A stretch of DNA of 64,000 nucleotides from Methanoculleus bourgensis MS2. Lineage in GTDB: Archaea; Halobacteriota; Methanomicrobia; Methanomicrobiales; Methanoculleaceae. Numbering within the stretch: position 1 is the stretch's first letter; each line of letters starts with the position of its first letter. The notes beneath the pieces are model-generated. The model saw only the letters and a program-made list of their open reading frames with translations. It had not been told where the DNA came from and did no database searches. Position numbers and translations under genes: made by a program. Location of the stretch: positions 1,116,001 to 1,180,000 of the forward strand of contig NC_018227.2 in the NCBI RefSeq assembly GCF_000304355.2, read 5' to 3'. Shown here piece by piece: positions 3,026 to 22,939 of this stretch.

Positions 3026-3144
3026 GGGCTGCGGGTACTCTACAGGTAACAGTCATCTGGGCCACTTTTGGTGAAAAACCACAATTAGAATACCTGTTCC
3101 ACACCCGAAGTATTATCCCCTCTGACTCCAACATCTACTCAAAG

Positions 3145-3498
3145 TTGAAAGTCACTATGCCTGATGATCTTATTACTGTCGTGGAAGAATCCGAGGACGT
3201 GGACAGCACCATCATCTCCCGGGTGCGCCTGGAGATACTCTGGGCGCTCTCCGAGCTCGGCGAGGATGGGGCCACCGCACGGCAGCTCAAGGCCGGGCTG
3301 AACCTGGGCGACGGCGTGCTCTACGCAAACCTCAAAAAACTTGTCGAGATGGGATACCTCCGCTCTGAGAAAGTAACGCTTGAAGGGAAGGAACTGGAGC
3401 TCTACGCCATCACCCCGGAAGGACTTCTTGAGTGGCGGCGTGTCCGGAGCTGGCTCTGCAAACTCCTGGGCTGCGAGGGTGATACCTGTGAACGATAG
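3145..3498 (+). CDS. Winged-helix DNA-binding regulator of the MazF cassette (copy 1)
   Basis: A protein of up to 117 residues; ATG 3157 (PDDLITVVEESEDVD follows) is the more conservative start. The core VRLEILWALSELGEDGATARQLKAGL, then DGVLYANLKKLVEMGYLRSEKV and a beta-wing KELELYAITPEGL, is a winged helix of the ArsR/PadR type with a C-terminal helix. It overlaps the next gene by 11 bases (3488-3498), so the two are coupled. It most likely represses its own operon, as TA autoregulators do. It is nearly identical to the protein at 21729-22082, with changes concentrated in the recognition region (RQLKAGLNLG versus RHLKAGLNLS) and wing. The function is inferred from fold and context. Confidence 0.75.
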   Translation: MKVTMPDDLITVVEESEDVDSTIISRVRLEILWALSELGEDGATARQLKAGLNLGDGVLYANLKKLVEMGYLRSEKVTLEGKELELYAITPEGLLEWRRVRSWLCKLLGCEGDTCER

Positions 3499-4018
3499 AA
3501 GCAAAGTCATTGCCTGCTTCCGGGAAGCGGGCTTCCGGATGGATAAAGACCGGTTCGAGCACCGGCTCATCGCCCAGAAGTTCGTCTACCTGATGAAACT
3601 CAAGGGCGTCGAATTCGCGTATCCATTTCGCCTCTACGTCCGGGGGCCCTACTCGCCGCTCCTTGCACGGGAGTACTACCAGCACGCCGACGAGTTTTCC
3701 CGGTGCGAGACGGAGAGCACACTTTCGCCTACCGAAGCTGAACACGTTGCAGAACTCACCGCTCTCTTCGACAAGAGCCCGTCCCTGCTTGAGATCGGGG
3801 CCACCTACGGGTACCTGGCCTACGAGATGCATCAACCGCCGCAGCAGGCGTACCGGACAGTCCGGAGAATGAAGTCCTTCTACTCAAATGAGCAGATCGT
3901 CAAGGGCGTCAACCGGGCGAAGCAGTTCCTCTTCGTCCCCACCGAAGAGGAGAAGGCGGCGCTCGACGCCGAGCTAGGGGAGTGGCAGCGGGCAGGCATC
4001 CGGTCGATGAGGCATTAG
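3488..4018 (+). CDS. YwgA/SocA(Panacea)-like protein, putative antitoxin of MazF (copy 1)
   Basis: The 176-residue frame starts at GTG 3488, chosen because it gives the 11-base overlap with the regulator and keeps the conserved VNDRSKVIACFREAGF. The middle segment LIAQKFVYLMKLKG, then YPFRLYVRGPYSP, resembles YwgA and SocA/Panacea domains (pattern QK-x-x-YL...Y-x-x-GPYSP). Panacea domains are known promiscuous antitoxin domains. The stop at 4016-4018 is one base from the mazF ATG, which places it where a cognate antitoxin would be. Three-quarters of the protein is all-helical. The antitoxin role is inferred from position and weak domain likeness. Confidence 0.6.
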   Translation: MNDRSKVIACFREAGFRMDKDRFEHRLIAQKFVYLMKLKGVEFAYPFRLYVRGPYSPLLAREYYQHADEFSRCETESTLSPTEAEHVAELTALFDKSPSLLEIGATYGYLAYEMHQPPQQAYRTVRRMKSFYSNEQIVKGVNRAKQFLFVPTEEEKAALDAELGEWQRAGIRSMRH

Positions 4019-4019
4019 G

Positions 4020-4355
4020 ATGCGTCGGAGCAGGGGCGATATCTGGTTCGTCGATCTGGCCGACGCACGGGGGCACGAACAGAGCGGGCTGCGGCCCGCC
4101 GTGGTGCTCGCCGTCTCTCACGGGGGGATGACAATCGTGGTCCCGCTCACGACGACCCCGGCGGCTTTTTCGTTCCCGCATACCCATGGCATCGAGAGGA
4201 GCTCACAGAACGGGCTCTCCTCCAATAGTGCGGCGCTGGTCTTCCAGATCGTTGCCCTCTCACAAGACCGTTTCGTCCGGAAGATCGGGCGATGCTCGGT
4301 CGAGGATATGGAAGCGATACGCGTTCTTTTGAAGGATCTGTTATTGCTGGAATAA
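4020..4355 (+). CDS. MazF/PemK-type endoribonuclease toxin (copy 1)
   Basis: This 111-residue protein begins RRSRGDIWFVDLADARGHEQ, the classic PemK/MazF opening (G-D-[IV]-W with the G-x-E-Q-x-G-x-R-P loop seen here as HEQSGLRPAVVL). TIVVPLTTTP is the conserved Thr-rich strand. The core ends VALSQDRFVRKIGR and a C-terminal helix. MazF toxins cleave single-stranded mRNA at short motifs. It is last in the three-gene cassette, one base after the putative antitoxin. Catalytic-region Arg and Thr are present, so it looks intact. An almost identical copy lies at 22604-22939, and a 36-base copy of its start lies at 6649. Confidence 0.88.
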   Translation: MRRSRGDIWFVDLADARGHEQSGLRPAVVLAVSHGGMTIVVPLTTTPAAFSFPHTHGIERSSQNGLSSNSAALVFQIVALSQDRFVRKIGRCSVEDMEAIRVLLKDLLLLE

Positions 4356-6830: not shown

Positions 6831-7025
6831 GTGATTGACTTGTTACCCGTCGGAAGCCCTGCAACCGGAGACGACTTCATCGACCGCGAGTGCGAGACCA
6901 CAATCATCCCGAGTACCATCGAAAAAGATCATGTCATGCTCGTTGCCCCACGGCGAGTTGAAATTTTACTCAAAGATGCTCCGGGACTGGTGGAGGATAT
7001 ATTATGCCAGCGTCGAGTAATGTAA
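6831..7025 (+). pseudogene. Truncated archaeal ATPase, N-terminal fragment
   Basis: GTG 6831 opens a 64-codon frame starting IDLLPVGSPATGDDFIDREC, followed by HVMLVAPRRVEILL. This is the usual opening of archaeal P-loop ATPases (PVGPPV-TGDDFFDRE...LLAPRRVGKTS), but the Walker A lysine region is destroyed (APRRVEI instead of APRRVGKT) and the rest is absent. It overlaps the start of the intact ATPase at 7004 by 22 bases. Either it is a decayed gene or it now serves only as a leader for the next gene. Confidence 0.6.
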
Positions 7026-8704
7026 TCCTCTATCGATACTCTCCCGCGACCCTTGATCGGGAAACGCTCCAGTACCTCCTCGTCGGCCGCCAGAAACTCG
7101 CAGAAAGCCTGCTTGAAGAGATCGATCAGGCGTCCGGGAGCGGAACTCCGCGCTTTTTCCTCCTTGTCGGACCCCGTGGCATTGGAAAATCCCACCTGCT
7201 GACCCTGCTCTACCAGAGGATGCACGATGACCTCGCTGAGAGGATAATCCCCGTAAAACTTGCGGAGGAGGAGTATTCGATATTCAGGGCGTCGGACTTC
7301 TTCTTGAGGATACTGGAAGAGATGGGGATCGGCATCGCGGATGTAATTGCGCTCGAAGAAGACCGGCTGGTCCGTGACGTTGCAGTTGATATGCTCAAAG
7401 GTTTTGCATCGACTGAGGGGAAACAGATTGCAATATTCGTTGAGAATCTGCACGAAATCTTCAACCAGATGGACAAACGTGAGATCCAGGCGTTACGATC
7501 GATATTCCAGCAGACAAACACCTTCTCAGTAGTTGCTTCGGCACCGTCGGTCTTCCCCGGCGTATCGGATCATGATGAGCCCTTTTACAATTTCTTCCGG
7601 ATCTTTCATCTCCTGGAACTCAAATGCGCTGAAGTCAAAGAGTTGATGAAGAGGGTTGCACAGGTTAGCGGCAATACCGCCTTCATCGAGAACTTCCAGG
7701 ACTACGAACCAACAATCGAGGCGCTCTTCCATCTCATCGGCGGCAACCCGCGACTGGTTATCCTGCTGTATGAGACTATCTCGAGGGGCGGGATCGATGA
7801 TGCAGGAAAGATCTTTTTCGAAATGACGGACGAGCAGACGCCGTATTACCAGGAGGTGTTCCAGAGGCTTACTGGACAGCGAAGGCTTATCTTCGATACG
7901 GTCCTCGGTGCAGAAACCCCCCTTACACCAAAGGAGATCGCAGAACGATCCCGGCTGGACCCCGCAACGGTGAACGCACAGCTCAGGAGACTGGAGAGGG
8001 ACGGATACGTCATCTCTCACCCGATGGGGAGGAGGACATCATATGAGGCCCGGGAGCGCCTCTTGGGGCTGTGGCGGGCGATGCGGAGATCACCCGGAAG
8101 GAGTCGCGTATTCAGGTTCATCGAGTTCTTGAGAGACTGGTACAGCCCGGACGAGCGAGTGGCGGTTCTTGACATGGTATGCCGGGAACTATCGGGAGTT
8201 GCAGAGGGTGAAAACCAGATGGTCGCAATCGCCTCATATATTGCAACCGGGAAGCGGAATGAAGCACTGGTAGCGATCGAGAACGTGGAGGGGCCGTTTG
8301 CGGATCTAGACCAATTGATGCAGTTTGTGCATCTCTGCCTGACTCTTGCAGGAGAGGAACTGCTGGATGGGAACCGGACGAACGGCTTGCGCTTGATAGA
8401 CATTGCGTATACTCAGGCGGGCCGTTTAGAACCGGGTCTGGTGAAGAAGGTCACCGTGGATTTCCTGAAATGGATCATCGGGGAGGGAGAGATACCCGCG
8501 ATAAAGAGTGCCGTTGATGAGATAATCAGACTCAGGGGCACTGAATTTCAACGGTTCTTGAAACCGGTTGCTGATGCCGTTGAGATTGTCGAGACAAACG
8601 ATACGAAATTGTATTCCACGAGGATGCAACCGGAAGAGAGGGAGATCGTTGCCGGGATTGTCCAGAGAATTACGGGGTCGGAGGAGCTGGTGCCGGAACT
8701 ATAG
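7004..8704 (+). CDS. AAA/STAND-like ATPase with winged-helix domain
   Basis: A 566-residue protein. Walker A is GPRGIGKSHLL (about residues 53-63), and a Walker B-like strand is QIAIFVENLHEIF (about 141-153), followed by a sensor-like SVVASAPSVF. Residues about 303-350 form a winged helix (LTPKEIAERSRLDPATVNAQLRRLERDGYVI). The C-terminal 200 residues are helical. This is the layout of ORC/STAND-related archaeal ATPases found near defence and mobile genes. It lies immediately before the convergent defence island (60 bases from the DpdA-like stop) and after a truncated related ATPase. GC content is near the genome average. The function is unknown; DNA-linked ATP-dependent signalling is an inference. 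Confidence 0.75.
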   Translation: MPASSNVILYRYSPATLDRETLQYLLVGRQKLAESLLEEIDQASGSGTPRFFLLVGPRGIGKSHLLTLLYQRMHDDLAERIIPVKLAEEEYSIFRASDFFLRILEEMGIGIADVIALEEDRLVRDVAVDMLKGFASTEGKQIAIFVENLHEIFNQMDKREIQALRSIFQQTNTFSVVASAPSVFPGVSDHDEPFYNFFRIFHLLELKCAEVKELMKRVAQVSGNTAFIENFQDYEPTIEALFHLIGGNPRLVILLYETISRGGIDDAGKIFFEMTDEQTPYYQEVFQRLTGQRRLIFDTVLGAETPLTPKEIAERSRLDPATVNAQLRRLERDGYVISHPMGRRTSYEARERLLGLWRAMRRSPGRSRVFRFIEFLRDWYSPDERVAVLDMVCRELSGVAEGENQMVAIASYIATGKRNEALVAIENVEGPFADLDQLMQFVHLCLTLAGEELLDGNRTNGLRLIDIAYTQAGRLEPGLVKKVTVDFLKWIIGEGEIPAIKSAVDEIIRLRGTEFQRFLKPVADAVEIVETNDTKLYSTRMQPEEREIVAGIVQRITGSEELVPEL

Positions 8705-8764: not shown

Positions 8765-10216
8765 CTAAGAACTGAAGTTACTGCGACAGGTAGATGATAT
8801 CTGTTTTTGAGATATGGACATGCCCTCAAGTTCCGAAAGCAATTTTTTAATTTTCTTTTCTGATTGTCCCTGTTTCAGGCCTTTCGTCAAATGTTTAATG
8901 TTGTACCCCCCATCTGCTAGTGCAAGTTCAAGAGCTGTGTAATAGGCAGAAGGCCCCAAGAATATAATCTCTTCGGTCAACGCAAACTCTAGATAATGGG
9001 GGATTTGTTTTGCAATTTTTGTTGCAAGGTTTCGAGAGTCCGTTTTGGTACTGATGACCATATCATAATTGGGGTTGATGATATCGTCTGGTCTTATCAA
9101 ACCGTATTTGGCAGATAAAATAAACCAGGGACAATCGGAGATTTCAGCATATCTCCGCTTTAACAAAAAGGATCTGCCAATATATGCCTCCTTGGCTGCG
9201 CATGATGTTACCTCTATCTTAGATTTTCCGCATGATATAATCACAATGCTATTTGGCTCCTGCAGTTGGTGTGCAACGTCATCTTCTCTCTTAACTATCA
9301 CTTTTGTTTTTAATGGAAAAATATGATTTTTTACTCTCTCTGCGGCGGTTTTAATTGGGTCACACGAAGCTTCAACTCCGCTCATTCGAGATAATACATT
9401 TTCTTCAATGAAACCCCTTGTTTGAAACACTCGATCTATATGGTGACATTTAGGGTCCTCGAATCTTCTCTTGTATTGGAAGATCCACCCTTTGTAATCA
9501 GCTGCGTCTACGCCGAGTTCTTCTAAAAATTCATGCCGTTTTGGATTATATACTCCCAGAGTGAAACATCGTTCGTCAGGCCATTCGCTTTTAATACGTC
9601 TGACAATCTCAATAATATCCATTTTATTTGACGAAGCGTATCTCGCTGTATTTTCTTTCTTTTTCAATAGTCCTCCGATTGCAACTTCTTCGAAACCTAT
9701 CTTTTTAAGTTTTTCATAGCAGTACGCATATTCATCAGGGTTTTTTCCTTGGGCAACGCCTACCAGTTTAAAATTGCAATCGAGTTGCGAATATATGGTC
9801 ATCGCCAGGTCAGCACTTTCAAGTGTTTTATCACAATCTCTAAGAACATCTAGAATGATCCCTCTCTCAACGTTCATTTGATCGTATCTCTCAAACAGTT
9901 CTGGGTAACTGAGGGCTGCGCCTGCTTTGGTGAAAACACCGCTATCAGCAATAGTTGTAATACTGTTCCGTACTGCCAAACCTCCTGTGCATCTACTTAT
10001 GTCGCCATCAAAAGGGCATTCTCCATCAGCAACACCACAATATTCTAGGTCCCCACAAGGAAATTGTGAAGCCATCGCACGGAAGTTCTCGGTTGTGCAA
10101 GCTTGGAACATGAGACCAACCTTTACAGGATGCCTTTCGAAAGGCAGACCCGCAAGTATTCTTAAACTCATCGGACGGTCAGCCACAAAATGGGGTATTA
10201 TGTGTGAGTAGGTCAT
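8765..10216 (-). CDS. TGT-superfamily (DpdA-like) transglycosylase with C-terminal DUF6884-like domain
   Basis: A 483-residue protein. Residues about 20-270 follow the tRNA-guanine transglycosylase barrel: DSGVF with D91 at the place of the first catalytic Asp, then GIILDV, the substrate motif GVAQGKNPDEYAYCYEKL plus VAIGGL (about 153-183; TGT has QGG...AIGGL), and LGVYNPKR...GVDAADY with D240 at the nucleophile position. Four cysteines (54, 60, 67, 76) near the N-terminus could bind a metal. There is no PUA domain or the usual TGT zinc motif, so it is not the tRNA archaeosine enzyme; it resembles DpdA, which inserts 7-deazaguanines into DNA. Residues about 322-460 (SIVIISCGKSK...FILSAKYGLIRPDD) look like DUF6884. 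Its start overlaps the herA-like stop by 4 bases. Confidence 0.7.
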   Translation of the reverse strand: MTYSHIIPHFVADRPMSLRILAGLPFERHPVKVGLMFQACTTENFRAMASQFPCGDLEYCGVADGECPFDGDISRCTGGLAVRNSITTIADSGVFTKAGAALSYPELFERYDQMNVERGIILDVLRDCDKTLESADLAMTIYSQLDCNFKLVGVAQGKNPDEYAYCYEKLKKIGFEEVAIGGLLKKKENTARYASSNKMDIIEIVRRIKSEWPDERCFTLGVYNPKRHEFLEELGVDAADYKGWIFQYKRRFEDPKCHHIDRVFQTRGFIEENVLSRMSGVEASCDPIKTAAERVKNHIFPLKTKVIVKREDDVAHQLQEPNSIVIISCGKSKIEVTSCAAKEAYIGRSFLLKRRYAEISDCPWFILSAKYGLIRPDDIINPNYDMVISTKTDSRNLATKIAKQIPHYLEFALTEEIIFLGPSAYYTALELALADGGYNIKHLTKGLKQGQSEKKIKKLLSELEGMSISQKQISSTCRSNFSS

Positions 10217-12123
10217 GTGCCGTTATCTCTATTATACTCGTTTGCCGCACGAATAATCCTCTCGTTTGCATTGTACGCCGTTGTGGGAATTGGAACACCT
10301 TTTAATCCCGTTGCATCGTGACTAATTATAAGCCAGTGCCCGGGTCTAAACGTAAAAGTCGGACTTAACTCTTCTTCTCCTATTCCAAAAGCTTCAGCAA
10401 TCTTATCTCTATCATACCTTCTTGGTAATTTACTGACAAAGTAAGTGTGGAGGTTCCCCATGACTTGTGTATCGAGCATCGAAGCTCTCTGAGTCGAAAT
10501 CCCGATGCCTAAATTATATTTCCTCCCCCGTCTAGCGATCGTAATACAGGTTTCCTTTATCTGTTTTGTTACGTCATCGTCGACATCTGACGGAATGAAT
10601 AGATCTGCTTCATCTAATAATAAAACAGTATAAGGTTCAATATCTGTACCTGTTGCCCCAATGCGTCTAGACTCGTATAATTCATTACCTAAAATACTGC
10701 AAAACTGTTTAAGCACGAAATCTTGCTTTCCAGTAATAATGATAATGCGACTTCTATCACTAGAATTCAGTTCATGGATGATTTCGTTAAAGGACAATAT
10801 AGCATTGGGTGGTACATTGAGTAAATGGTCTCTATATCTTTCAAGTGCCCTGACGGTACGGTCTACAACCCCTTGTACAGTAGGTCTATTCCGTTCGGGC
10901 TGTATTCTCTGAATGGGTGCCCTAACAGGGCTTGAAAATTCGTTCTCTAAGTCGATAGCAATTTGGAGATTTTCTGGAGTAATGGGCAAATTTTCTACAG
11001 ATCCTGTCCATGCGGTTTCAATTTCCAATAATGCCTCTCTTCCGGCTGCGCCGGTATTACTGGGCGTCTGATTCCTTAACTCATTCCGTAGCCATGTTGA
11101 AAGGTCTTTCACTGGTAGGGCCAGAGATGTCCTTGTTAAAGCATTCCGCACACCAAATCTGATAAAATCCTGAATATCATAATTTTCTCGTAAGTTCAGA
11201 GGTAGGTGCATCTGCCGGTGCAGTAAATTCACATTATCAGTTGTTGGTTCATCCCCCTGTCCTAGGTTCGCCACTATAGATTGGGGAAGAGAATCGACAC
11301 CGACATGGATATATAATAACGAATCTGGTTCATATACGAATTTATCAATAAATAACCCTAGATATTCATCGTTAGGATCTATAATTACAATATTTACTGG
11401 ATTCGCCGCTCTATCTAATTGATCTCTTATCTCAAGTTGATCAGCCTCTCTATGATCTGAAGGTATAATAGAATCGACCAGTGAAGACACAAAGTTTGAT
11501 TTTCCGACACCTGTAAAACCAAAAATTCCAAAATGCGTTGTTAATAGAGCTCGGTTATCCAGTTTCACATTAATTGTTTCAAACTTTTTGTGAATAAGGT
11601 GAGATTCTGGCAGATTATCCATCTGGTAATTGATTATTGCATCAACCATATCTCGACTTAGCGGCCTTATCTCAGCCCCAACCATAGGCAGGCTTCTCTC
11701 TTCTTCAAGTGACGGGAGTTCGTCTAAAAGGTCGTTAAAGGTAAATTGCCATCCTGTAGAAACCGATTTGCATGATATCGTAGTTGTCGCTTGAAGTGGG
11801 TTATCCTTTTGGTTTTCCCAGTCTTCCTTAATAGATCGCATCGACTCAAACACATGTCCAGGATATGCTCCAAGACCTTCAGCCGCAAAATGGATCGGAA
11901 GAACTTGAGTAAGGGTTAGTACAGAATATGTCCTATTATGCTCATCCTCAGAGACGGAGTAATTTTCAACAGCTATCAGGTCTCCTACCTGAAGTTGATT
12001 TAATCCAAATCTCGTGTATTGGCAAGCCAGTTCAAATTCAAATCGCCCCTGCTCATCAGGAGTTATTTTCAATAAAGCGCTTCGTGCTCTATACAAACGA
12101 ATATCATCAAATGGAGATGTCAT
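10213..12123 (-). CDS. HerA-like hexameric ATPase/translocase
   Basis: A 636-residue protein. An N-terminal beta-rich part (about 1-130) fits a HAS barrel. Walker A is GFTGVGKSN (about 202-210) and Walker B TVLLLDEADLF in the last third, followed by the HerA/FtsK-type arginine block ITIARRGRKYNLGIGISTQR and the C-terminal signature FRPGHWLIISHD. HerA motors pump DNA to a NurA nuclease in archaeal end resection; here a NurA-like gene ends one base upstream, so the pair is likely a physical complex. It differs from housekeeping HerA by a long insert between about 250 and 450 and by the absence of mre11/rad50 nearby. AT-rich. Confidence 0.85.
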   Translation of the reverse strand: MTSPFDDIRLYRARSALLKITPDEQGRFEFELACQYTRFGLNQLQVGDLIAVENYSVSEDEHNRTYSVLTLTQVLPIHFAAEGLGAYPGHVFESMRSIKEDWENQKDNPLQATTTISCKSVSTGWQFTFNDLLDELPSLEEERSLPMVGAEIRPLSRDMVDAIINYQMDNLPESHLIHKKFETINVKLDNRALLTTHFGIFGFTGVGKSNFVSSLVDSIIPSDHREADQLEIRDQLDRAANPVNIVIIDPNDEYLGLFIDKFVYEPDSLLYIHVGVDSLPQSIVANLGQGDEPTTDNVNLLHRQMHLPLNLRENYDIQDFIRFGVRNALTRTSLALPVKDLSTWLRNELRNQTPSNTGAAGREALLEIETAWTGSVENLPITPENLQIAIDLENEFSSPVRAPIQRIQPERNRPTVQGVVDRTVRALERYRDHLLNVPPNAILSFNEIIHELNSSDRSRIIIITGKQDFVLKQFCSILGNELYESRRIGATGTDIEPYTVLLLDEADLFIPSDVDDDVTKQIKETCITIARRGRKYNLGIGISTQRASMLDTQVMGNLHTYFVSKLPRRYDRDKIAEAFGIGEEELSPTFTFRPGHWLIISHDATGLKGVPIPTTAYNANERIIRAANEYNRDNGT

Positions 12124-13977
12124 TTATCCACCACCTCTTAATTGCCGTAATGTCCGGTGTAACGGGTTAGCACGGTTTAACCGTTCAGATGAGTAAAGCA
12201 TTGGTTCAACCATTTTCAACACTGATTTCGCTCCTCTATCAGCGTGATGAAGAGGATCAGGATAGCCAATCACTTCAGGGAATACATTTCGCGTCAGTAC
12301 GGATAACAAATAAATTATGTACTCCTGCTCTCGATTTCTCACAGAAGCATCACGAAACCAAAACGGTTCTACAGTCCCTAAGTCTCTATCGCCCGAGATT
12401 ATGTGGATTCGTGGTGGGATATTATTTGGATGGACAAGGCGGTCAACAAAGATCACATGCCCCATCGACGGCTCCATTGGGGGATCCCTCACCAAATGGA
12501 ATTGTACAAGAGTCCTCATGATAAGATTTGGTTGAATAAGGACGTCCCCTCTGACCCCTTGCAAAGTAGGCTCATCAGCCTCCCATTCTTTTCTCATCCG
12601 CAATGTCATGAAAACGGCATCAAACTCCGTAGAGGCCCATGGCCCTCTCAATGAGTCGTCAATAAACGGAATTCGCTCAAAAGTGAGGCGATCAGTAGTC
12701 GGTATCCGTCTAGGTGTAAAGTTGAAAACTCCTTTGTGTTTTAACACCCCGAGGTAATGATTAGTAAAGTATGTTGAGGCTGAGTCTTTGACCACTCCGA
12801 TTAACATAACTCCATTTCGCCAGCAGTTCTCAAAGGTCAATCGGAGCCCAATGGCTAATAGAAATGAGATCTCATCGGTGGATAAAAATCGCTCTCTCCT
12901 ATTATTCGTTTCATCAACTCGATCGTAGAGAAGAACAGATGGATCCTTATAGACAAAAAATCGGTTACAAAAGAACTCGTACATTCTTCTGATCTTATCC
13001 GAAGAGTGAAGGTATTGTGGATTTAATGTAAGAATATTGCCTTCTTTTTTCACGAGGGCATCATCTGGATTCTTTCCTTCAAACTTTTTCCCATACTTAT
13101 TACATTCCCATATCAGCCTAATTTGAGTCTCAACAACTGGTTGGCTTAAGCCAACATCAATTGAGAAGTCTCTAATATTCAGAGTGTAGTTAGGCGACTC
13201 AAATATTTTTGCTATTGCCCTTTCCCACAATCTATGTGATTTTTTTGAAGGAACACCCAACTCGCTATTCCATGGTTTAGAGTACCCAACGAGAAGATCT
13301 GGGTACCATATTCGTTCGCCAGCAATTTCTGTTCCTGCAAATCTTAATTTTCTAATATTTGGCGTCGCATTTGCCAAGACTGAAGATAAGGAGTGATCCC
13401 AGAGGAGTATATGTGGATGGTCAATGTTGGATGCACCACGGTATAACAGAAAAATTTCTGCAAGAAGCATGAGTGAAGTATCCAATCCCGAGAGAGAGAT
13501 CCTCTCAGCGTCGTTTACAACAAACCTATCCTCCGGATCGATCATCGTCAGTTCTTCGGAGCTAATTGGAAGGTATGCAACCAAACTCGAATCATCTTCA
13601 GGCTCTGACTCTTCGTATTGTATTATTGGTGGCGTATCCTGTAGTTCTAATCTGCCCTTGACAACATATGCACCGCCATAAAAAATGACGATGTCTGTAG
13701 TTTCAACCTTTTTACAGGTTCCGTCAACAGCCCAAAAACGTAATGTACTACTTCTATGCCTCTGTTGAAGATCTCGATGCATTTCTCGTCTAAAAGCCTC
13801 GCTGTCAAAGCGATCAGCGTAACGTATAACATGGTCTTTCATAAACCCATCGTAAAAGAGTTCCAACTCATTGGTGGAATCGAGAAGACTCCTCTCCAAC
13901 TTGTTACGAGTTTGAGAAAGGGCTTTATCATAAAGAGAAAAGACGTCAGAAATAGTTGACCTGCCGGCCATGTCCAT
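12124..13977 (-). CDS. NurA-like nuclease, enlarged
   Basis: A 617-residue protein, longer than typical NurA (about 300-450). NurA motifs are visible: FWAVDGTCK (D85) after a helical N-terminus, the strand-acid motif HILLWDHSLS (D194), and the C-terminal signature FPEVIGYPDPLHHAD. The middle (about 250-450) carries extra helical sequence including a winged-helix-like region, which might recognise DNA ends or modified bases. Predicted activity is a manganese-dependent DNA nuclease driven by the HerA-like partner. It is first of a three-gene unit; the next gene starts one base after its stop. It lies 113 bases downstream of hsdM on the same strand. AT-rich. Confidence 0.72.
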   Translation of the reverse strand: MDMAGRSTISDVFSLYDKALSQTRNKLERSLLDSTNELELFYDGFMKDHVIRYADRFDSEAFRREMHRDLQQRHRSSTLRFWAVDGTCKKVETTDIVIFYGGAYVVKGRLELQDTPPIIQYEESEPEDDSSLVAYLPISSEELTMIDPEDRFVVNDAERISLSGLDTSLMLLAEIFLLYRGASNIDHPHILLWDHSLSSVLANATPNIRKLRFAGTEIAGERIWYPDLLVGYSKPWNSELGVPSKKSHRLWERAIAKIFESPNYTLNIRDFSIDVGLSQPVVETQIRLIWECNKYGKKFEGKNPDDALVKKEGNILTLNPQYLHSSDKIRRMYEFFCNRFFVYKDPSVLLYDRVDETNNRRERFLSTDEISFLLAIGLRLTFENCWRNGVMLIGVVKDSASTYFTNHYLGVLKHKGVFNFTPRRIPTTDRLTFERIPFIDDSLRGPWASTEFDAVFMTLRMRKEWEADEPTLQGVRGDVLIQPNLIMRTLVQFHLVRDPPMEPSMGHVIFVDRLVHPNNIPPRIHIISGDRDLGTVEPFWFRDASVRNREQEYIIYLLSVLTRNVFPEVIGYPDPLHHADRGAKSVLKMVEPMLYSSERLNRANPLHRTLRQLRGGG

Positions 13978-14089
13978 CAGTGGTGTATGATTTTTAAGGA
14001 TCCATAAACTTTACGATTCTATAATATTGTTGTATGACTGTAGATTGAAGAAATATGGTATAGCTTTGCTCCATGGGAGCAGGTATCCC
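13978..14089 (-). promoter_or_regulatory. Possible promoter of the nurA-herA-TGT unit and hsdM hairpin
   Basis: On the minus strand the gap holds a small hairpin TGCTCC-CAT-GGAGCA soon after the hsdM stop, then AT-rich sequence with TATTATAGAATC and CTTAAAAATC about 25 bases before the NurA-like start. It could both weaken read-through and start a separate transcript. Weak evidence. Confidence 0.35.
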
Positions 14090-15601
14090 CTACCCCCTCC
14101 CCAACAACGCCTTCAACTCACTCAAATTCTCCAGGATCTCCCTCTCCAGATCCTCAATCTTTCCGATGATAACCTCCGGCGGATCATACTCCACCTCCTC
14201 ATACTCGATCTCTTTGTACCGGGAGATCGAAAGGTCGTAGTTGTTCTCCCGGATCTCCTCGACCGGCACATAGAAGCACTTCGCCTTCCGGTCGGTCGGG
14301 TCTGCCTCCCGCCGCTTCCGGAACTGCTCGATGATATCGGGGATGTCGCCCCTGCCGTCGATGAAGGTCCTCTTGTCATCGAGCGAGTAGCCGTCCGCCT
14401 CCATGTCATAGAACCAGACCTTCTCGGTCTTCCCGCCCTTCGTGAAGATCAAAACAGCGGTCGAGACGCCTGCGTAGGGCTTGAAGACGCCGGAGGGCAT
14501 GGAGACGATGCCTTCGAGTTGGTTCTCTTCGAGGAGCATCCGGCGGAGCCCCTTGTGCGCCCTGGAACTCCCAAAGAGCACGCCGTCGGGCACGATAACG
14601 CCGCATTTCCCGCCTATCGTCAGGAGCTGGATCATCCGCTCGACGAAGAGCAGTTCGGTCTTCTTCGTCTTGAGGGTCAGGGCATCGTTGATGTCGCTCT
14701 TGTCGATGCTGCCCTTGAAGGGCGGGTTGGCAAGGACAACGGTATAGCGCTCCTCTTCATCGTAACGTTTGGAGAGGGTGTCCTTGAGTTCGACGCGGGG
14801 GGCCTTGATGCCGTGGAGCATCAGGTTCATGAGCGATATCCGGGCCATCGTGGAGTCGAAGTCGAATCCGTAGAAGGTATCGTTCCAGAGTTTCTCCCAA
14901 TGTTTCTGGTCGGTGATGTTGTCGCCGATGAGGTTGCGGTACTCGCCCTCGCTATCGATCTCTAGGAGGTCGGGGCTTGTGTACTTCCTGATGATATACT
15001 CGTAGGCGTTGATAAGGAAGCCGGCCGTGCCGCACGCAGGGTCGCAGATCCGGTCGGTGATATCGGGGTCGACCAGTCCCACGATCATCCTGATGATGTG
15101 GCGGGGGGTGCGGAACTGTCCGTTCTTCCCGGCGGTGGAGAGCTGGGAGAGGAGATACTCGTAGATGTCGCCCTGGGTGTCGCGGTTCTGTGCGGTGATG
15201 TCCATATCGTCGATGATGGCGACCGCTTCCTGGAGGAGGGAAGGTTTCGGGATGATGAAGACGGCGTCCTGCATCTGCCGGGCAAAGAGCGTCTTCTCCC
15301 CGTTGTGGAGCGACTTGATGAAGGGGAAGACCACGTCCCGGACATGCTCAAGCATCTGCTCGGCGGGGTAGTGCTTCCAGGTCGACCACCGGCACTCCTC
15401 GTGGTCCTCGAAGACAGAGGTATACGGCACCCCCCGCAGCCGTGCACGTTTCTGCTCGACGACATCCATGTCCTCAAGCCGCTTCATGAAGATGAGGTAG
15501 GACATCTGCTCGATGGACTGGAGCGGGTTTGACATCCCGCCGCTCCAGAAGCGGTCCCAGAGGGTGTCGATCTTTGATTTGAGTTCGGGAGCGAGTTTCA
15601 T
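14090..15601 (-). CDS. hsdM: Type I restriction-modification system, DNA methyltransferase subunit
   Basis: A 503-residue protein with the N-terminal HsdM helical domain ([20 protein letters not shown]...[14 protein letters not shown]), the SAM-binding motif [17 protein letters not shown] and the catalytic adenine-methylase motif ANPPFKGS (N-P-P-F). The C-terminal helical tail ([18 protein letters not shown]) contacts HsdS. It would methylate adenine in the bipartite target chosen by HsdS. It starts at ATG 15599-15601, overlapping the stop of the SEC-C gene by 4 bases. GC-rich, unlike the two genes just upstream. Nothing looks damaged. Confidence 0.95.
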
Positions 15602-16506
15602 GTTATCATTTCCTGCTCCAGGACAAATCCTTCAACAAGTCCGTATTTTTCCATTATTTCCTGCAATAATGCTTTCACCTTCTCTGGCGTGTCGTAACCT
15701 ATTGATTCAATCATATCGATGAGTATGTCTCCCTCTTTCGCAATATTCGGGAAAATTTCTTTGAAGTCATCACAATATTGATTGAAGTAAGTCTTATCCT
15801 CACCGAGGATCATTTTCCCCTGTAAATTGGCTAAAACAAATTCAAATAAGGTCAATAATGTGTTTATTCTATCTAATGACGCTTCAGACTCGCCTTTGTA
15901 CGACCTAATATGGCCTAAATATTTGGCTTTCAAGAGGTCATTGTAATCGAATCCGTAATTCAGTAGTCTTGAGTCAACGAGAATATCATGAAGCATACTG
16001 GTAAGTTTTGCTGCAATAACTGCGTTCGCTCGCTGATATTCATATGGAATGTCTTTCGTATTCGCTACACCTACTCCAGGGTAACTCTCATCAAAAACAA
16101 TGCAGTGCATCAACTCATGGGCAATGGTTACTATATCTTCGACTTTTGGAGGGATATTATCCAGGATTAGTAAGTAATCTGTTTTTCCTTTAGTAGTTAA
16201 TCGTGCAAATTTTCCCTTTTGGCCTATACAATATGATAATGAGGTAGCAATTGCTGGATTCGCTTTCAGCCAAAAAAGTCTACTGGGTAGTTTACCCTTT
16301 TCTGAGTCATAAAAATTCCTAAATTCCTTTGATTTCTTATATATGTCTTTCAGAATTAAATCTCCTGGATACGTGTCAGTGACAGCACCGAAGGGCAATC
16401 TGTATACACCGACTGGAGCTATGTCATCTTCTGGACGCAAGCAGCATTTTTTATATTTTTTACCACTCCCACATGGGCATGGATCGTTTCTTCCAGTTTT
16501 TGTCAT
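15598..16506 (-). CDS. SEC-C motif protein with HExxH zinc-peptidase-like motif, embedded in the type I R-M operon
   Basis: A 302-residue protein. The N-terminus [20 protein letters not shown] is a textbook SEC-C zinc-binding motif. Around residue 145 the segment [16 protein letters not shown] contains HELMH, the HExxH motif of zinc metallopeptidases (zincins), followed by a predominantly helical C-terminal half. No signal peptide, so cytoplasmic. It sits between hsdS and hsdM and overlaps hsdM by 4 bases, so it is translated with the methyltransferase. Function unknown; an effector or a regulator turning over a subunit is possible. The third metal ligand is not identified. AT-rich, in contrast to hsdM. 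Confidence 0.75.
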
Positions 16507-16525
16507 AGCAATTAACCTCTGAGAT

Positions 16526-17692
16526 TTAGTTTGATATTAGTTCTCCGATGAAGGCTTTGCTCATTAGCGCATTAAGGAGAGACGAGACCTCGTATGTGGA
16601 TTCATGCTGCTGATTTCTAATTTCTTCAATTTGTTGGGCGATACTTGCGAAAGAATTTTGTATCTCTACTGGAGGTAGAATAAGTGGAATTGAGCTTAAG
16701 ACACCTTTACTGATCATACCTTTCATCGAATGGGTAGAAAATTTCTGGATATACCCCTGCGAATTCCTGAATAAGTGGTACAAAAAAACCGGATTAACAC
16801 TCTTATTTGGCACGATAGCATTGATTTGTTGATTGAATGCAACCTCTCGATCTGCTATAGCAGTGTTACCGATGCAGGAAATACTGCCCGCAATACAGGT
16901 TATTAGCACCGATCCCTTTGGCGCAATCCGTCCAACATCTGCTCCTTGTTTTGACAGCATTTCTTCGCTTCTCGTTAAGTAAGTAAAGGGGGTGTTGATA
17001 TTATCCGATTTAATCCACTCTATATGGTTGCCATAATACTCTGCTCTCTCTCTCGGCGGAGTATTCCCAGTGATTATCTCACCAAATTCACGGAGGGGCT
17101 TTTTTATCCATCCCTTCTCATTCTTTACAGGATTTCCAAAGATCTCTAAAAAGGCACTTCTTTGTAACTCCTGAGTCAGCGCATCCGCCTCTGCCCGCAG
17201 GCGTTGCGTTGCCTCTGCCTTATCGAGGATGGCGACGATTTTGCGCTGGGTGTCGAGAGGGGGGAGAGGGACAACAAGATCTTCTAATGTCGTTTTTGTT
17301 ATAGATTTAAAGGTAGAACCTGTCCCTTTTTGTTCAATGCTCGGTTTTAGGTACCGTAGAAGGTAGTAAAGATATTTATTGTCGCCACGATGTAACGAAA
17401 CCGAGGAAAGTCCTCTCCCTATGCAATAGTCCGTATTAGCAATATTTACAGCACCAATTGGTGCTCTGACCGAGAATAGGACAGACCCTTTTCGTGCCAT
17501 TTTTCGTGGCTCTGTAGTCCAGTAGGACGGAGCAGGCGATTCGACTCCAAATTCTGCGTTACCCTGTAAAAACGGGCATCCATCACTTATCTGATTATAT
17601 GAGGAGCCAGGAGGAGACTGCCCCATTGTTATATCAGCAACCTCGCCAAGTGCCCTTGACTCCCACGTTTCAGGTAACCCTTTCCATCTCAC
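16526..17692 (-). CDS. hsdS: Type I restriction system specificity subunit
   Basis: A 388-residue protein with two target-recognition domains joined by conserved helices. TRD1 (about 8-150) starts [20 protein letters not shown]; the central conserved helix is [20 protein letters not shown] through [16 protein letters not shown]2 (about 205-345) starts [14 protein letters not shown]; the distal helix ends [16 protein letters not shown]. The two halves choose the two half-sites of the DNA target. It begins 7 bases after the hsdR stop. The recognition-domain stretches are AT-rich while the central helix codons are GC-rich, a pattern expected from recognition-domain exchange. The target sequence cannot be predicted. 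Confidence 0.93.
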
Positions 17693-17698
17693 TATACC

Positions 17699-20536
17699 TC
17701 ACGCCTCCACCGCAAACAACTCCCGCTCCAGCCCCTGGCAGATCCCGATAAACGCCACGAGATCATCCTCATCGAACATCGGCACCGGTGCCGTGCTCCC
17801 GAAGTTCGTGAACGGGGCAAGGAAGAGATCGTCCATAACTATGTGCTTCTTCCGCATAAAAACGGTCTGAATCGTCCGGATGAAGTGGAGTTGGTCGGCG
17901 GAGTAGCGCTTGTTGTTCTCGATCATGTAGGTCCGAAACGCCTCCTCAATCTTCTTCCTCGGGTCGGGCGCCTCGTAGAGACCGAAGAGGGACCGGATAA
18001 ACTCAATCAGCGTGCCATGCGGATGCCGCGGCGAGGCCTGCAGCATCTCATCGGTGACGTTCACCCCGGCCTCAGAGAGCGCCTCCTCGAGGCCGCGCAG
18101 GTCCTCTTCGCTGATCGGCTCATCCCGGAGGATCTTCTGGATGGCCGGGCTGTGGTCGGCAAGGTCCGTGACCCTCCTTTCGACCGTCTCCCGGAACGCC
18201 ACCTCATACTCGGGCGCCTCCTCGGCAAGCGTCCAGAATGTGCGCTCCTTGATGATGTCCCCCATATCAATGACAATCGGCTCATACGCCTCCTTTGACA
18301 TGTACCGCATCAGCGGGGCGACATCCTCGATGAGCCCGGCAGCGCCCTCAAACGAGAGGCCCTTCCAGAACGCACGAGAGAGCACCTCGTCCAGCTGCTC
18401 CTCCTTCTCTCTCACGACGTTGAGCGTCCGGGGCAGGTGGTCGACCATTCCCCCGATCTCCGGGGCCAGCCGCTCGATCTCCTTCTCGTTTCCCTCCAGC
18501 ACCGCCAGCCCCAGTCGTTCCGCCTTGAGCGTGAAGGACGCCACGTTCAGGTTCACGCCGGTCTGGAAACGCATCAGGGGCATGATCGTGCTCTTCAGGT
18601 ACTCCAGGGGGTCCACGCCCACATTATCCCAGAGGTTCGGGGAGAGCGCCTTTGCGATCTCCTGCTCGTGTTCCCTGACGCTCACCGAGTCCATCGGGAG
18701 GGCGCGGATATCCTCCTCGATCCGCTGCCGGACAAGCCCGAGTCGCTCCTCATCATCCTGCTCTCGAAGGCGCTCCAGCTGCTTCAGCCGCAGGAGGAAG
18801 ATCCGGCTCGTAATTGCCTCGGTCGGCTCGTTCTTCACCCCCTCGGGGTTCATGTTCCAGTACTCGAAGTTGTTCCAGAAGTCAAAGACCTTGAAATACT
18901 CTTTATGCCCGTCTGGCAGCCACTCCCGGTGCTTACACGCCGAATCTGACCGCGTCCCGCGCCCGAGCATCTGCCAGAACTTGATCTTCGAAAAGACCGG
19001 TTTTGCAAAGACCAGATTGCAGACCTCCGGCACGTCGATACCGGTATCGAGCATATCCACCGAGATTGCCACGCGGGGGAAAGACTCGTGCTCGAAGTCG
19101 TGGATGAGCGCGTCGGCGCGGGGGTCGTCCGAGACGATGATCCGCGCCAGCCTTCCTTTGTACTCGGGATACAGGTCGTCGAACGCCTCGTGCAGCCGTC
19201 GGGCGTGCTTCTTCGAGATAGCAAAGAAGATCGATTTTGCCGGAAGCGTCCCGGCCTGGTCCATCAGGCCGTTCTCCATGAACTCCCGGACTATCGCCTC
19301 AGACGTGCCCTTGACGGCGACCTTCTTCTCCAGTTCCGTCCCCTCGAAGTCGATATCGTCAGGGTCGATCCCCTGCTCGATCAGCCGGTCGCGTTCGCTC
19401 TCCGTCAGGTCAGAGGGGCGGATGCCCTCGATCTGGAAGTGCGTCTGTGCGCCAAGAATGCTCTTGCGGAAGTCGACCAGCACGCCATCCCGCACCGCCT
19501 CATCATACGAGTAGAGCGCGGTCGGCATGGCTCCGTCGCACTGGAAGAACCTGAAGGTGTCGCGGTCGACCAGTTCGGCGGGGGTCGCCGTCAGCCCGAT
19601 CTGCACGGCGTCCAGGTACGTGAAGACATCTCGCCACTTGTTGTAGATACTCCGGTGCGCCTCATCGGAGATGATCAAGTCGAACTCTCCGGGAGAGATG
19701 AGGTACTGCCCGTGCCCGTCTTTCTGGGTGTAGATCTCCTGAAACGTCTGGATCGTGGAGACATAGAGCCGTTTTTCCTGGTTGAACCTGCCGTGCAGGA
19801 TCTTGTCCTTCGCCTCGTGGGGAAAGAACTCGAGGAACCCCTTGTTCCACGCCTGGTCGCGGAGAGCCTTCCGATCCGTGAGAAAGAGCACCCTCTGTGC
19901 ACGGTTCTCCCGCAGGAGGGCATCGATGATCGCCATCGCCACGCGGGTCTTCCCCGTGCCGGTCGCCATGACGATCAGCGCCTTCCGGTGACCTTTATAG
20001 AGGTGCTCAAGAACCCGCTTGACGTTCTCGATGCTCTTGGGCCGATCGACGATACGGGTGTTGACCTCGATCAGTCTTTCAGGGTCGATCCTCGCGTTCT
20101 GGAACCGGAGCCGCTCAAGGTCTTTCTGTGCGTAGAAGCCCTTCAATTGTCGAAGAGGATAGCGCTCCCGGTCCCAGAACCATATCTCGTAGCCGTTGGA
20201 GAGGAAGATGAAGACGTCCTTACCAGTCTGCCACTTGATGTCGTCGGCATACTGCTCCGCTTGCTTCTGCCCGATGAGCGGGTCTTTTGAGGTGCGTTTG
20301 GCCTCGATGATGGCGAGCGGAGCGCCGAGACTGTCGAGGAGCAGGTAGTCGACGTACTTGCTCTCCAGGTCGTTCTTCAGTGTCTCGGCTACGGTCTTGT
20401 AGGAGTATGCAAGAAAGTCGGACTGTCTGGTATCGACTTCGAGGATTACAGAAGCGCGGTCGGTGACGTCCCAGCCCTGCTCGGCAAGGTAGACGTCTAT
20501 CTTCTCTTTCCGCGTCCGTAATTCGTTTAAGTCCAT
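17699..20536 (-). CDS. hsdR: Type I restriction endonuclease, motor/nuclease subunit
   Basis: A 945-residue protein of the EcoEI-like kind. Order of parts: N-terminal PD-(D/E)xK nuclease (DYLLLDSLGAPLAIIEAKRT, about residues 61-80), SF2 helicase domain 1 with Walker A VMATGTGKTRVA (about 189-200) and DEAH box LIISDEAHRSIYNKW, domain 2 with DMLDTGIDVPEV and QMLGRGTRSD, and a long helical C-terminal region that joins HsdM/HsdS. It translocates DNA by ATP hydrolysis and cuts at a distance. First gene of the island transcript: GTGAGG lies a few bases upstream of its ATG, and a TATA-like CTTATGTATA (minus strand, about 20598-20607) about 65 bases upstream. Intact. Confidence 0.95.
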   Translation of the reverse strand: MDLNELRTRKEKIDVYLAEQGWDVTDRASVILEVDTRQSDFLAYSYKTVAETLKNDLESKYVDYLLLDSLGAPLAIIEAKRTSKDPLIGQKQAEQYADDIKWQTGKDVFIFLSNGYEIWFWDRERYPLRQLKGFYAQKDLERLRFQNARIDPERLIEVNTRIVDRPKSIENVKRVLEHLYKGHRKALIVMATGTGKTRVAMAIIDALLRENRAQRVLFLTDRKALRDQAWNKGFLEFFPHEAKDKILHGRFNQEKRLYVSTIQTFQEIYTQKDGHGQYLISPGEFDLIISDEAHRSIYNKWRDVFTYLDAVQIGLTATPAELVDRDTFRFFQCDGAMPTALYSYDEAVRDGVLVDFRKSILGAQTHFQIEGIRPSDLTESERDRLIEQGIDPDDIDFEGTELEKKVAVKGTSEAIVREFMENGLMDQAGTLPAKSIFFAISKKHARRLHEAFDDLYPEYKGRLARIIVSDDPRADALIHDFEHESFPRVAISVDMLDTGIDVPEVCNLVFAKPVFSKIKFWQMLGRGTRSDSACKHREWLPDGHKEYFKVFDFWNNFEYWNMNPEGVKNEPTEAITSRIFLLRLKQLERLREQDDEERLGLVRQRIEEDIRALPMDSVSVREHEQEIAKALSPNLWDNVGVDPLEYLKSTIMPLMRFQTGVNLNVASFTLKAERLGLAVLEGNEKEIERLAPEIGGMVDHLPRTLNVVREKEEQLDEVLSRAFWKGLSFEGAAGLIEDVAPLMRYMSKEAYEPIVIDMGDIIKERTFWTLAEEAPEYEVAFRETVERRVTDLADHSPAIQKILRDEPISEEDLRGLEEALSEAGVNVTDEMLQASPRHPHGTLIEFIRSLFGLYEAPDPRKKIEEAFRTYMIENNKRYSADQLHFIRTIQTVFMRKKHIVMDDLFLAPFTNFGSTAPVPMFDEDDLVAFIGICQGLERELFAVEA

Positions 20537-21552: not shown

Positions 21553-21728
21553 CGCAGTTCTTAGGACATCCGGTATTGCACCTACTCAAACTGTTTTCAG
21601 CTCTTCGCAGATTCGCGGGGGTTTGAGATCTGCAGGAAGATTGCTCTTCAGATGTTCCATCTCCTTGCCCAGAGGGGTTCCCCCGCACCCGAAGTCTTAT
21701 CCCCTCTCACTCCAACATCTACTCAAAG

Positions 21729-22082
21729 TTGAAAGTCGCTATGCCTGATGATCTTATAACAGTCGTGGAAGAATCCGAGGACGTGGACAGCACCATCATC
21801 TCCCGGGTGCGCCTGGAGATACTCTGGGCGCTCTCCGAACTCGGGGAAGACGGAGCCACCGCCCGGCACCTCAAAGCCGGGCTGAACCTGAGCGACGGCG
21901 TGCTCTATGCAAACCTCAAGAAACTCGTCGGGCTGGGGTATCTCCGCTCCGAGAAGGTGACGCTCGAGGGGAAGGAGCTCGAACTCTACGCCATCACCCG
22001 GGAAGGGCTTCTCGCATGGCAGCGTGTCCGGAGCTGGCTCTGCAAACTTCTGGGTTGCGGGGGTGAACTCTGTGAACGATAG
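21729..22082 (+). CDS. Winged-helix regulator of the MazF cassette (copy 2)
   Basis: A protein of 117 residues from the first ATG (113 from ATG 21741, PDDLITVVEESEDVD). Same winged helix as at 3145-3498, with substitutions in the predicted recognition helix (ATARHLKAGLNLSDG) and after it (VGLGYLRSE), and in the wing (ITREGLLAWQ). These may let the two copies recognise different operators. The C-terminus CGGELCER overlaps the next gene by 11 bases. Probably the autorepressor of the operon. Confidence 0.75.
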   Translation: MKVAMPDDLITVVEESEDVDSTIISRVRLEILWALSELGEDGATARHLKAGLNLSDGVLYANLKKLVGLGYLRSEKVTLEGKELELYAITREGLLAWQRVRSWLCKLLGCGGELCER

Positions 22083-22602
22083 AAGCAAAGTCATTGCCTG
22101 CTTCCGGGAAGCGGGCTTCCGGATGGATAAAGACCGGTTCGAGCACCGGCTCGTCGCCCAGAAGTTCGTCTACCTGATGAAACTCAAGGGCGTAGCATTC
22201 GGCTACACCTTTCACCTCTATGTCCGGGGGCCGTACTCGCCGCCCCTTGCACGGGAATACTACCAGCATGCCGATGAGTTTTCCCGGTGCGAGACGGAGA
22301 GCACACTCTCGCCTACCGAAGCTGAACACGTTGCAGAACTCACCGCTCTCTTCGACAAGAGCCCGTCCCTGCTTGAGATCGGGGCCACCTACGGGTACCT
22401 GGCCTACGAAAGGTGCTATCCACCGCAGCAGGCGTACCGGACGGTGAGAAGGATGAAGTCCTTCTACCCGAGCGAGCAGATCGTCAGGGGCGTCAACCGG
22501 GCGAAGCAGTTCCTCTTCGTCCCCACCGAAGAGGAGAAGGCGGCGCTCGACGCCGAGCTAGGGGAGTGGCAGCGGGCCGGTATCAGGTCGATGAGGCATT
22601 AG
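22072..22602 (+). CDS. YwgA/SocA-like putative antitoxin (copy 2)
   Basis: A 176-residue protein from GTG 22072, nearly identical to that at 3488-4018. Differences cluster at LKGVAFGYTFHLYVRGPYSPP (versus VEFAYPFRL) and at AYERCYPP (versus AYEMHQPP), places that could be toxin-contact surfaces. It keeps the QKFVYLMKLKG and GPYSP features of the YwgA/Panacea group. One base separates it from mazF. Antitoxin role inferred from position. Confidence 0.6.
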   Translation: MNDRSKVIACFREAGFRMDKDRFEHRLVAQKFVYLMKLKGVAFGYTFHLYVRGPYSPPLAREYYQHADEFSRCETESTLSPTEAEHVAELTALFDKSPSLLEIGATYGYLAYERCYPPQQAYRTVRRMKSFYPSEQIVRGVNRAKQFLFVPTEEEKAALDAELGEWQRAGIRSMRH

Positions 22603-22603
22603 G

Positions 22604-22939
22604 ATGCGCCGGAGCAGGGGCGATATCTGGTTCGTCGACCTCACCGACGCACGAGGGCACGAACAGAGCGGGATGCGGCCTGCTGTGGTGCTCGCCGTCG
22701 CCTACGGAGGCATGACGATCGTGGTCCCGCTCACGACGACCCCGGCGGCGTTCGGATTCCCGCATACCCACAGCATCGAGAAGAGTTCGGAGAATGGACT
22801 CTCCTCTGACAGTGCGGCGCTGGTCTTCCAGATTGTTGCGCTCTCACAAGACCGTTTCGTCCGAAAGATCGGGCGATGCCCGGGCGGGGACATGGAAGCG
22901 ATCAGCGTTCTCTTAAAAGACCTCCTGTCACTGGAATAG
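22604..22939 (+). CDS. MazF/PemK-type endoribonuclease toxin (copy 2)
   Basis: A 111-residue protein with the same motifs as copy 1: RGDIWFVDLTDARGHEQSG, RPAVVLAV, TIVVPLTTTP, VALSQDRFVRKIGR. Scattered substitutions (SHGG to AYGG, SFPHTHGIERS to GFPHTHSIEKS, CSVEDMEAIR to CPGGDMEAIS) show the copies have diverged at the protein level without frame damage, which argues both are kept functional. It should cleave mRNA; the sequence specificity may differ from copy 1. Confidence 0.88.
   Translation: MRRSRGDIWFVDLTDARGHEQSGMRPAVVLAVAYGGMTIVVPLTTTPAAFGFPHTHSIEKSSENGLSSDSAALVFQIVALSQDRFVRKIGRCPGGDMEAISVLLKDLLSLE

Follow-up and report, generated by a model that had tools for sequence, protein, structure and literature searches.

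A NurA-like nuclease, a HerA-family translocase and a DpdA-like transglycosylase encoded in one archaeal operon: a candidate compact Dpd-like restriction-modification system

Introduction

The published Dpd islands carry separate dpdA, dpdB and dpdC genes together with dpdD-K, and their dpdC is annotated with the DUF6884 domain (PMC11888242). The BREX-related capture (BRC) systems, described in 2026, combine HerA, and sometimes a tRNA-guanine transglycosylase (TGT), with BREX parts; their authors reported no DpdC homologue (PMC12839542). Here we analysed a stretch of 64,000 nucleotides from the genome of Methanoculleus bourgensis MS2 (the window), in which one operon encodes a NurA-like nuclease, a HerA-family DNA translocase and a fusion of a TGT barrel with a DUF6884 tail (TGT-DUF6884). 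The partner genes are unlike those of the known dpd clusters, as an initial annotation of this DNA had pointed out, since a NurA-like gene and herA stand in place of dpdD-K. We think it probable, though well short of certain, that the operon is a compact Dpd-like 7-deazaguanine restriction-modification system, in which TGT-DUF6884 would mark self and HerA-NurA would destroy unmarked DNA.

Results

The three open reading frames are all intact and lie in the same minus-strand operon of a host genome that is a single contig of 2.79 Mb (Table 1). The tight coupling described in the initial annotation was confirmed, with a 4-base overlap between herA and the TGT gene; the 1-base spacing given between the first two genes had to be corrected, as 0 bases lie between the NurA-like stop codon and the HerA ATG. 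The segment is also AT-rich, as had been stated (∼42% GC versus 55-63% across most of the window).

Table 1. Positions of the features discussed and hosts of the other triplets (window coordinates unless marked otherwise)
Feature	Location	Strand	Remarks
NurA-like nuclease gene	12124-13977	-	617 aa, operon gene 1
HerA-family DNA translocase gene	10213-12123	-	636 aa
TGT-DUF6884 fusion gene	8765-10216	-	483 aa; DpdA-like barrel + DpdC-like tail
TGT barrel, residues 4-280	9377-10207	-	DpdA fold match and invariant catalytic residues
D91 codon	9944-9946	-	TGT barrel
D240 codon	9497-9499	-	TGT barrel
DUF6884 (YaaA/DpdC-like) domain, residues 324-454	8855-9247	-	C329xxxK333 and LSAKYG
Discrete inserted segment	8691-14088	.	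5,398 bp; contains exactly the three triplet genes; empty site in G003
Host's own ArcTGT	2086208-2087488 (genome)
Host's own shorter NurA	871366-872130 (genome)
Same-order triplet	L032/L040		Methanoculleus
Same-order triplet	L041		Methanosarcina
Same-order triplet	L042 and L043		Methanoperedens
Same-order triplet	L033/L044		Euryarchaeota archaeon
Same-order triplet	L034
Same-order triplet	L035/L052		Methanophagales
Same-order triplet	L037/L049		Methanoperedenaceae
Same-order triplet	L048		Methanomicrobia

The barrel of the third protein was matched by the Pfam TGT family (E 1.5e-4, under the curated cutoff), by the PADLOC DpdA model (E 9e-10) and by the NCBIfam DpdA equivalog (35 bits versus a cutoff of 200). 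Given the score under the equivalog cutoff, the operon TGT is, by these profiles, a divergent DpdA relative. Its AlphaFold model (predicted local distance difference test, pLDDT, 75.7; low at residues 56-66, 286-321 and the C-terminus) adopts a TGT barrel, for which the best Foldseek match was 7ui4 (E 1.4e-9), a structure of DpdA, the DNA preQ0 insertase. VIA-align also placed 7ui4 first (Z 17.5, 231 residues, 3.1 Å), nearly tied with the Z. mobilis TGT (Z 17.0), so that DpdA was the top structural match by both methods; when the family profile was compared with the PDB by sequence, 7ui4 was the sole match (E 0.0014).

Across 16 relatives, D91, D123, G181/G182, D240 and the DYKGW motif (D240-YKGW) were invariant and Q156 was near-invariant, and the D91/D123/D240 region aligns with 7ui4. 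The catalytic set of the TGT superfamily is present: two catalytic Asp, the preQ0-pocket Asp, Gln and GG(L). The DpdA-like TGT fold with D91 and D240 that the initial annotation had proposed was thus borne out. tRNA TGTs carry a zinc site after the nucleophile; in the 16-relative alignment, no C-x-C-x2-C...H site and no conserved Cys or His were found after D240, and the ArcTGT model TIGR00432 (NCBIfam) gave no match on the operon TGT. A four-cysteine insertion (FPC-YC-CP-C; residues 57-79 of the window TGT, just before D91) is common to ten relatives and missing in six, and is possibly a metal site.

The DUF6884-like tail suspected from the start was detected well over the Pfam cutoff (PF21818; E 4.9e-23) and could be refined to a DpdC-like domain. 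DpdC, a DUF328/DUF6884 protein, converts inserted preQ0. PADLOC DpdC matched it with an E of 8.5e-7, and matched the tail in up to five of seven family members, via one DpdC model only. The tail carries the DUF6884 motifs CxxxK (C329xxxK333) and LSAxxG (LSAKYG), which the Pfam authors proposed as the active site (PMC11701544). Because of these motifs and the DUF6884 annotation of published dpdC, TGT-DUF6884 is probably DpdA plus DpdC in one chain. In two cyanobacteria (L045 and L053) we observed a four-gene version, in which DUF6884 is encoded by its own gene, immediately upstream of those for NurA-like, HerA and TGT, and the TGT has no such tail. This pair of fused archaeal and separate cyanobacterial forms ties the tail to the barrel. 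The plasmids and phages searched gave no full-length relative, the only matches being to stand-alone DUF6884 (once, to a distant TGT); for DUF6884 in Caulobacter phages no link to deazaguanine genes was learned, its neighbours being hypothetical.

The tail also bears on a type IV-like restriction, in which TGT-DUF6884 would recognise 7-deazaguanines in viral DNA and HerA-NurA would destroy that DNA. DpdA/deazaguanine genes have been described in archaeal viruses (PMC6884629, PMC8651126), and DUF6884 has been modelled as a base-flipping reader (PMC11701544). However, reading needs no full conservation of the transglycosylation residues, the DpdC-like tail resembles a modifier of host DNA, and two scans of viral contigs found no TGT relatives. 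Moreover, a relative of the operon TGT sits in an operon of DISARM (L050, see below), a system whose self mark normally comes from a methyltransferase, although that contig ends ∼290 bp upstream. We regard such a role as quite unlikely. The initial annotation had offered both mechanisms, and modification combined with cleavage of unmodified DNA fits the evidence better than cleavage of foreign deazaguanine DNA.

The assignment of the HerA-like motor, which had been made from motifs, is clear: Pfam DUF87 matched with an E of 4.7e-15 (56.7 bits versus a cutoff of 23.2) and PADLOC HerA with an E of 3.4e-44, Walker A (GFTGVGKSN) and Walker B (DEAD) are intact and invariant in relatives, and the profile matches the solved HerA hexamers 9x1l, 8j4u and 8wiv. 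The nuclease could be upheld in part. Its family motifs, VDG(T/S), LLWD(H/Q)S, LIGxVKDSxS and GYPDPLHxAD, follow the NurA order and are largely invariant (VDGT with D85, LLWDHS with D194, LIGVVKDSAS with K397 and GYPDPLHHAD with H577 in the window copy). PF09376 was the sole Pfam family matching all six aligned members (best E 2.5e-4), and one cyanobacterial partner exceeded its cutoff (21.9 versus 21 bits); the window copy itself reached only E 0.014 (15.4 bits versus the cutoff of 21). A PDB profile search with the NurA-like alignment gave no match. NurA identity is therefore weak, at the level of motifs, and is the weakest assignment of the three; the name NurA-like reflects the score of the window copy and the failed structure model (see Discussion).

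The trio was found together in other genomes. Nine further archaeal loci carry it in the same order, ten counting the window (Table 1), which is far beyond chance, and in a Thermoplasmata locus (L051) HerA-TGT lies at the edge of a contig. When 84,980 species were scanned with the TGT alone, 14 loci were obtained; HerA adjoins the TGT in 11 of these, and other defence modules do so in the remaining 3. Eight of 393 same-phylum genomes contain the NurA-like subfamily, as five intact triplets, one triplet disrupted by an insertion sequence (IS) and two remnants, and every intact copy adjoins HerA. In the disrupted case (G081; L063, 8076-12003) the IS interrupts herA and the TGT is gone; this is the sole HerA-linked copy without a TGT.

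The members of the trio differ in their histories. The TGTs of the window and L032 share 67% identity, whereas the NurA-like and HerA proteins of these two loci are only 33-34% identical. Conversely, in the comparison with L042/L043 identity is 72-73% and 56-57% for the NurA-like and HerA proteins and 37% for the TGT. In approximately unbiased tests the NurA/HerA grouping was rejected by the TGT data (p 1e-90), and the TGT grouping by the data of NurA (p 1e-6) and of HerA (p 3e-31), L032 being a long branch in the NurA and HerA trees. On these trees, NurA-like and HerA move as a pair and the TGT moves separately, with partners swapped. Such a conflict is expected of separable modification and restriction modules.

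Relatives of the TGT were also observed with other partners. In a Heimdallarchaeota metagenome-assembled genome (L050, 2104-9470; L095), the TGT ends an operon of DrmA (1.3e-77), DrmB and DrmC. No methyltransferase was found on this 35-kb contig, which ends close upstream of the operon as mentioned above, and no second DISARM-TGT example was found in 195 same-phylum genomes. In Archaeoglobus (L047, 7983-14645), TGT-DUF6884 leads a Druantia-like set, whose split helicase resembles DruE and bears MZB and PLD domains. In a Thermoplasmatota locus (L046, 4466-9284), the TGT follows in one operon a SIR2-ORC/CDC6 gene and a second gene, a partner of unknown kind; homologues of this SIR2-ORC pair lie convergent to the triplet of L034 (9681-14488). 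More distant TGT-DUF6884 proteins stand beside BrxC-like AAA genes in L038 (733-6731) and L039 (1127-7185). We put forward, tentatively and with less than even confidence, that TGT-DUF6884 may be an exchangeable 7-deazaguanine self-marking cassette for four or more unrelated restriction modules (NurA-HerA, DISARM DrmABC, the Druantia-like helicase/PLD set and SIR2-ORC), as methyltransferases are, with NurA-HerA recruited from DNA repair to read the mark.

The same exchanges, of the TGT against a constant NurA-HerA pair and the reverse, and the pairing of the TGT with many unrelated effectors could also be accounted for if the TGT were a targeting subunit that acts on invading DNA, either modifying it or opening its glycosidic bonds, so that HerA-NurA enters where the DNA is marked or abasic. 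Swapping the TGT would then alter target specificity, like HsdS exchange in type I systems. The DpdA and DpdC of bacterial islands, on the other hand, are known to label self DNA with a stable mark (PMC11888242), and without such a mark there is no evident distinction between host and foreign DNA. We consider both the targeting role and the change of specificity unlikely. Self-marking was preferred because of the full catalytic conservation, the DpdC-like tail and the way in which the nuclease module changes around a retained marking enzyme.

Archaeal hosts make preQ0 for tRNA archaeosine. Full-length QueC, which acts in preQ0 synthesis, was present in 12 of 13 hosts, so preQ0 is available to the operon, as had been anticipated. 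A separate ArcTGT was found in all 11 archaeal hosts tested, so the role of tRNA enzyme does not fall to the operon TGT; with the separate ArcTGT and NurA of the window host, the operon TGT and NurA-like copies are dedicated ones.

The trio forms a discrete insertion. In the relative G003 (L111), homology to the window ends at 8690 and restarts at 14089, with 174 bp between, and homologues of the window AAA ATPase and hsdM are kept without the triplet segment. These observations weigh on the view that the trio is an accessory DNA-end-processing or RNA-modification cassette, its extra HerA-NurA and TGT paralogue serving repair or tRNA changes. HerA-NurA is indeed the archaeal end-resection machine, TGT relatives modify tRNA, and the DUF6884 member YfjM binds DNA lesions (PMC11701544). 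Against such a function stand the patchy distribution (five intact triplets in 393 genomes), the clean empty site in G003, the low GC, the type I restriction-modification and SIR2 neighbours, the fact that DISARM, Druantia-like or SIR2 modules take the place of the nuclease pair in relatives, and the separate housekeeping ArcTGT and NurA. We find a role outside defence very improbable; housekeeping end resection in particular was set aside on account of the separate NurA and the patchiness.

The triplet lies directly downstream of type I restriction-modification genes (14090-20536), on the same strand as had been described. A functional link did not hold up: the relatives G003 and G020 carry the hsd genes but lack the triplet, and in most other loci the triplet stands without hsd genes next to it. 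As the empty site in G003 excludes only the three genes, we treat the type I genes as neighbours and not as members. An AAA ATPase gene with a winged helix (7004-8704) adjoins the triplet on the opposite strand and stands beside hsdM in the triplet-free G003. Between hsdS and hsdM lies a SEC-C gene (15598-16506) with a weak IrrE-like peptidase match; in G003 the hsd operon has no such gene. The whole defence block is flanked by two direct copies, sharing 90% identity, of a 1.25-kb cassette (winged-helix, antitoxin-like and MazF-like genes; 3099-4354 and 21683-22938), and a single copy of nearly full length is present in at least ten genomes of the same genus. A tRNA-Ala gene occupies 358-441. 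Since homology of G020 to the left end of the window stops at 441, the region has the look of a variable hotspot for defence genes next to a tRNA gene.

Discussion

Under the self-marking reading, the host would supply preQ0 from its tRNA archaeosine pathway, and the TGT barrel would swap G for preQ0 at certain sites, D240 serving as the nucleophile and D91 as the acid/base; we infer that the substrate would be host DNA. The fused DpdC-like DUF6884 would then flip out the inserted preQ0 and convert it, the mark being most likely the amide (dADG). The HerA hexamer and the NurA-like protein, a presumed nuclease, would load on unmarked viral or plasmid DNA, pump it and degrade it, and would in this way serve defence.

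Several observations weigh against this scheme. No homologue of DpdB, the DndB/ParB-like protein encoded beside dpdA in Dpd systems, was found in the operon or next to it, the rest of the genome being outside that search, and one host (G163) has only weak QueC matches, none full-length. The nuclease is a further weak point: hhalign of the triplet NurA-like family against 20 bona fide NurA proteins gave only 5-12% probability, and the structure prediction was of low confidence (pLDDT 43.9) and was not used. TGT swapping with a constant nuclease pair could equally fit a targeting role of the TGT, and each context without NurA is represented by one locus or two, mostly in draft genomes.

If the self-marking reading is true, archaea would have a 7-deazaguanine self label with three genes, versus up to eleven in bacterial dpd islands, and thereby a minimal system for DpdA-type site choice and for the reading of an absent mark by a nuclease. 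HerA-NurA, known as a repair machine, would be recast as a restriction effector, and the marking enzyme would be traded among DISARM-, Druantia- and SIR2-type modules, as methyltransferases are. Among the hosts of the triplet are methanogens and anaerobic methane oxidisers, groups whose DNA modification has received little study.

Among known systems, DISARM is related through the TGT relative in the DrmA-DrmB-DrmC operon of L050, which stands where a methyltransferase is usual; the window has no Drm gene. The HerA anti-phage pairs (SIR2-HerA, HerA-DUF4297) likewise join a HerA hexamer to an effector enzyme, but the effector of the triplet is NurA-like, and we know of no HerA-based anti-phage pair that includes a TGT. 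With the HerA-NurA end-resection complex the triplet shares a motor and a NurA-like nuclease encoded by adjacent genes. Unlike that complex, it is extra to the housekeeping NurA and linked to a TGT, and its NurA-like protein has ∼617 aa versus roughly 300-430 aa.

The initial annotation had called the system undescribed. We found no description of NurA-HerA-TGT in the open-access literature searched (subscription papers and preprints were outside that search), but the word must be softened, as BRC systems, the nearest idea in print, also bring a HerA/FtsK motor and a TGT together in a single defence locus. BRC has PglZ, DUF6079, a STAND NTPase, DUF4007 and often GNAT, and no nuclease NurA as described (PMC12839542); in the triplet operon and the adjacent genes scanned, we found no PglZ, BrxC-like DUF6079, STAND NTPase or DUF4007. 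The BRC-like loci L038 and L039 differ from BRC as published in the C-terminal DUF6884 tail of their TGT. Compared with the Dpd islands (dpdA-K; S. Montevideo), the triplet, found in archaea and cyanobacteria, probably fuses the DpdA and DpdC parts in one protein and has no DpdB in its operon, while it shares with them a TGT-fold enzyme closest to DpdA (7ui4), a DpdC-like DUF6884 domain, preQ0 from the host and a defence setting.

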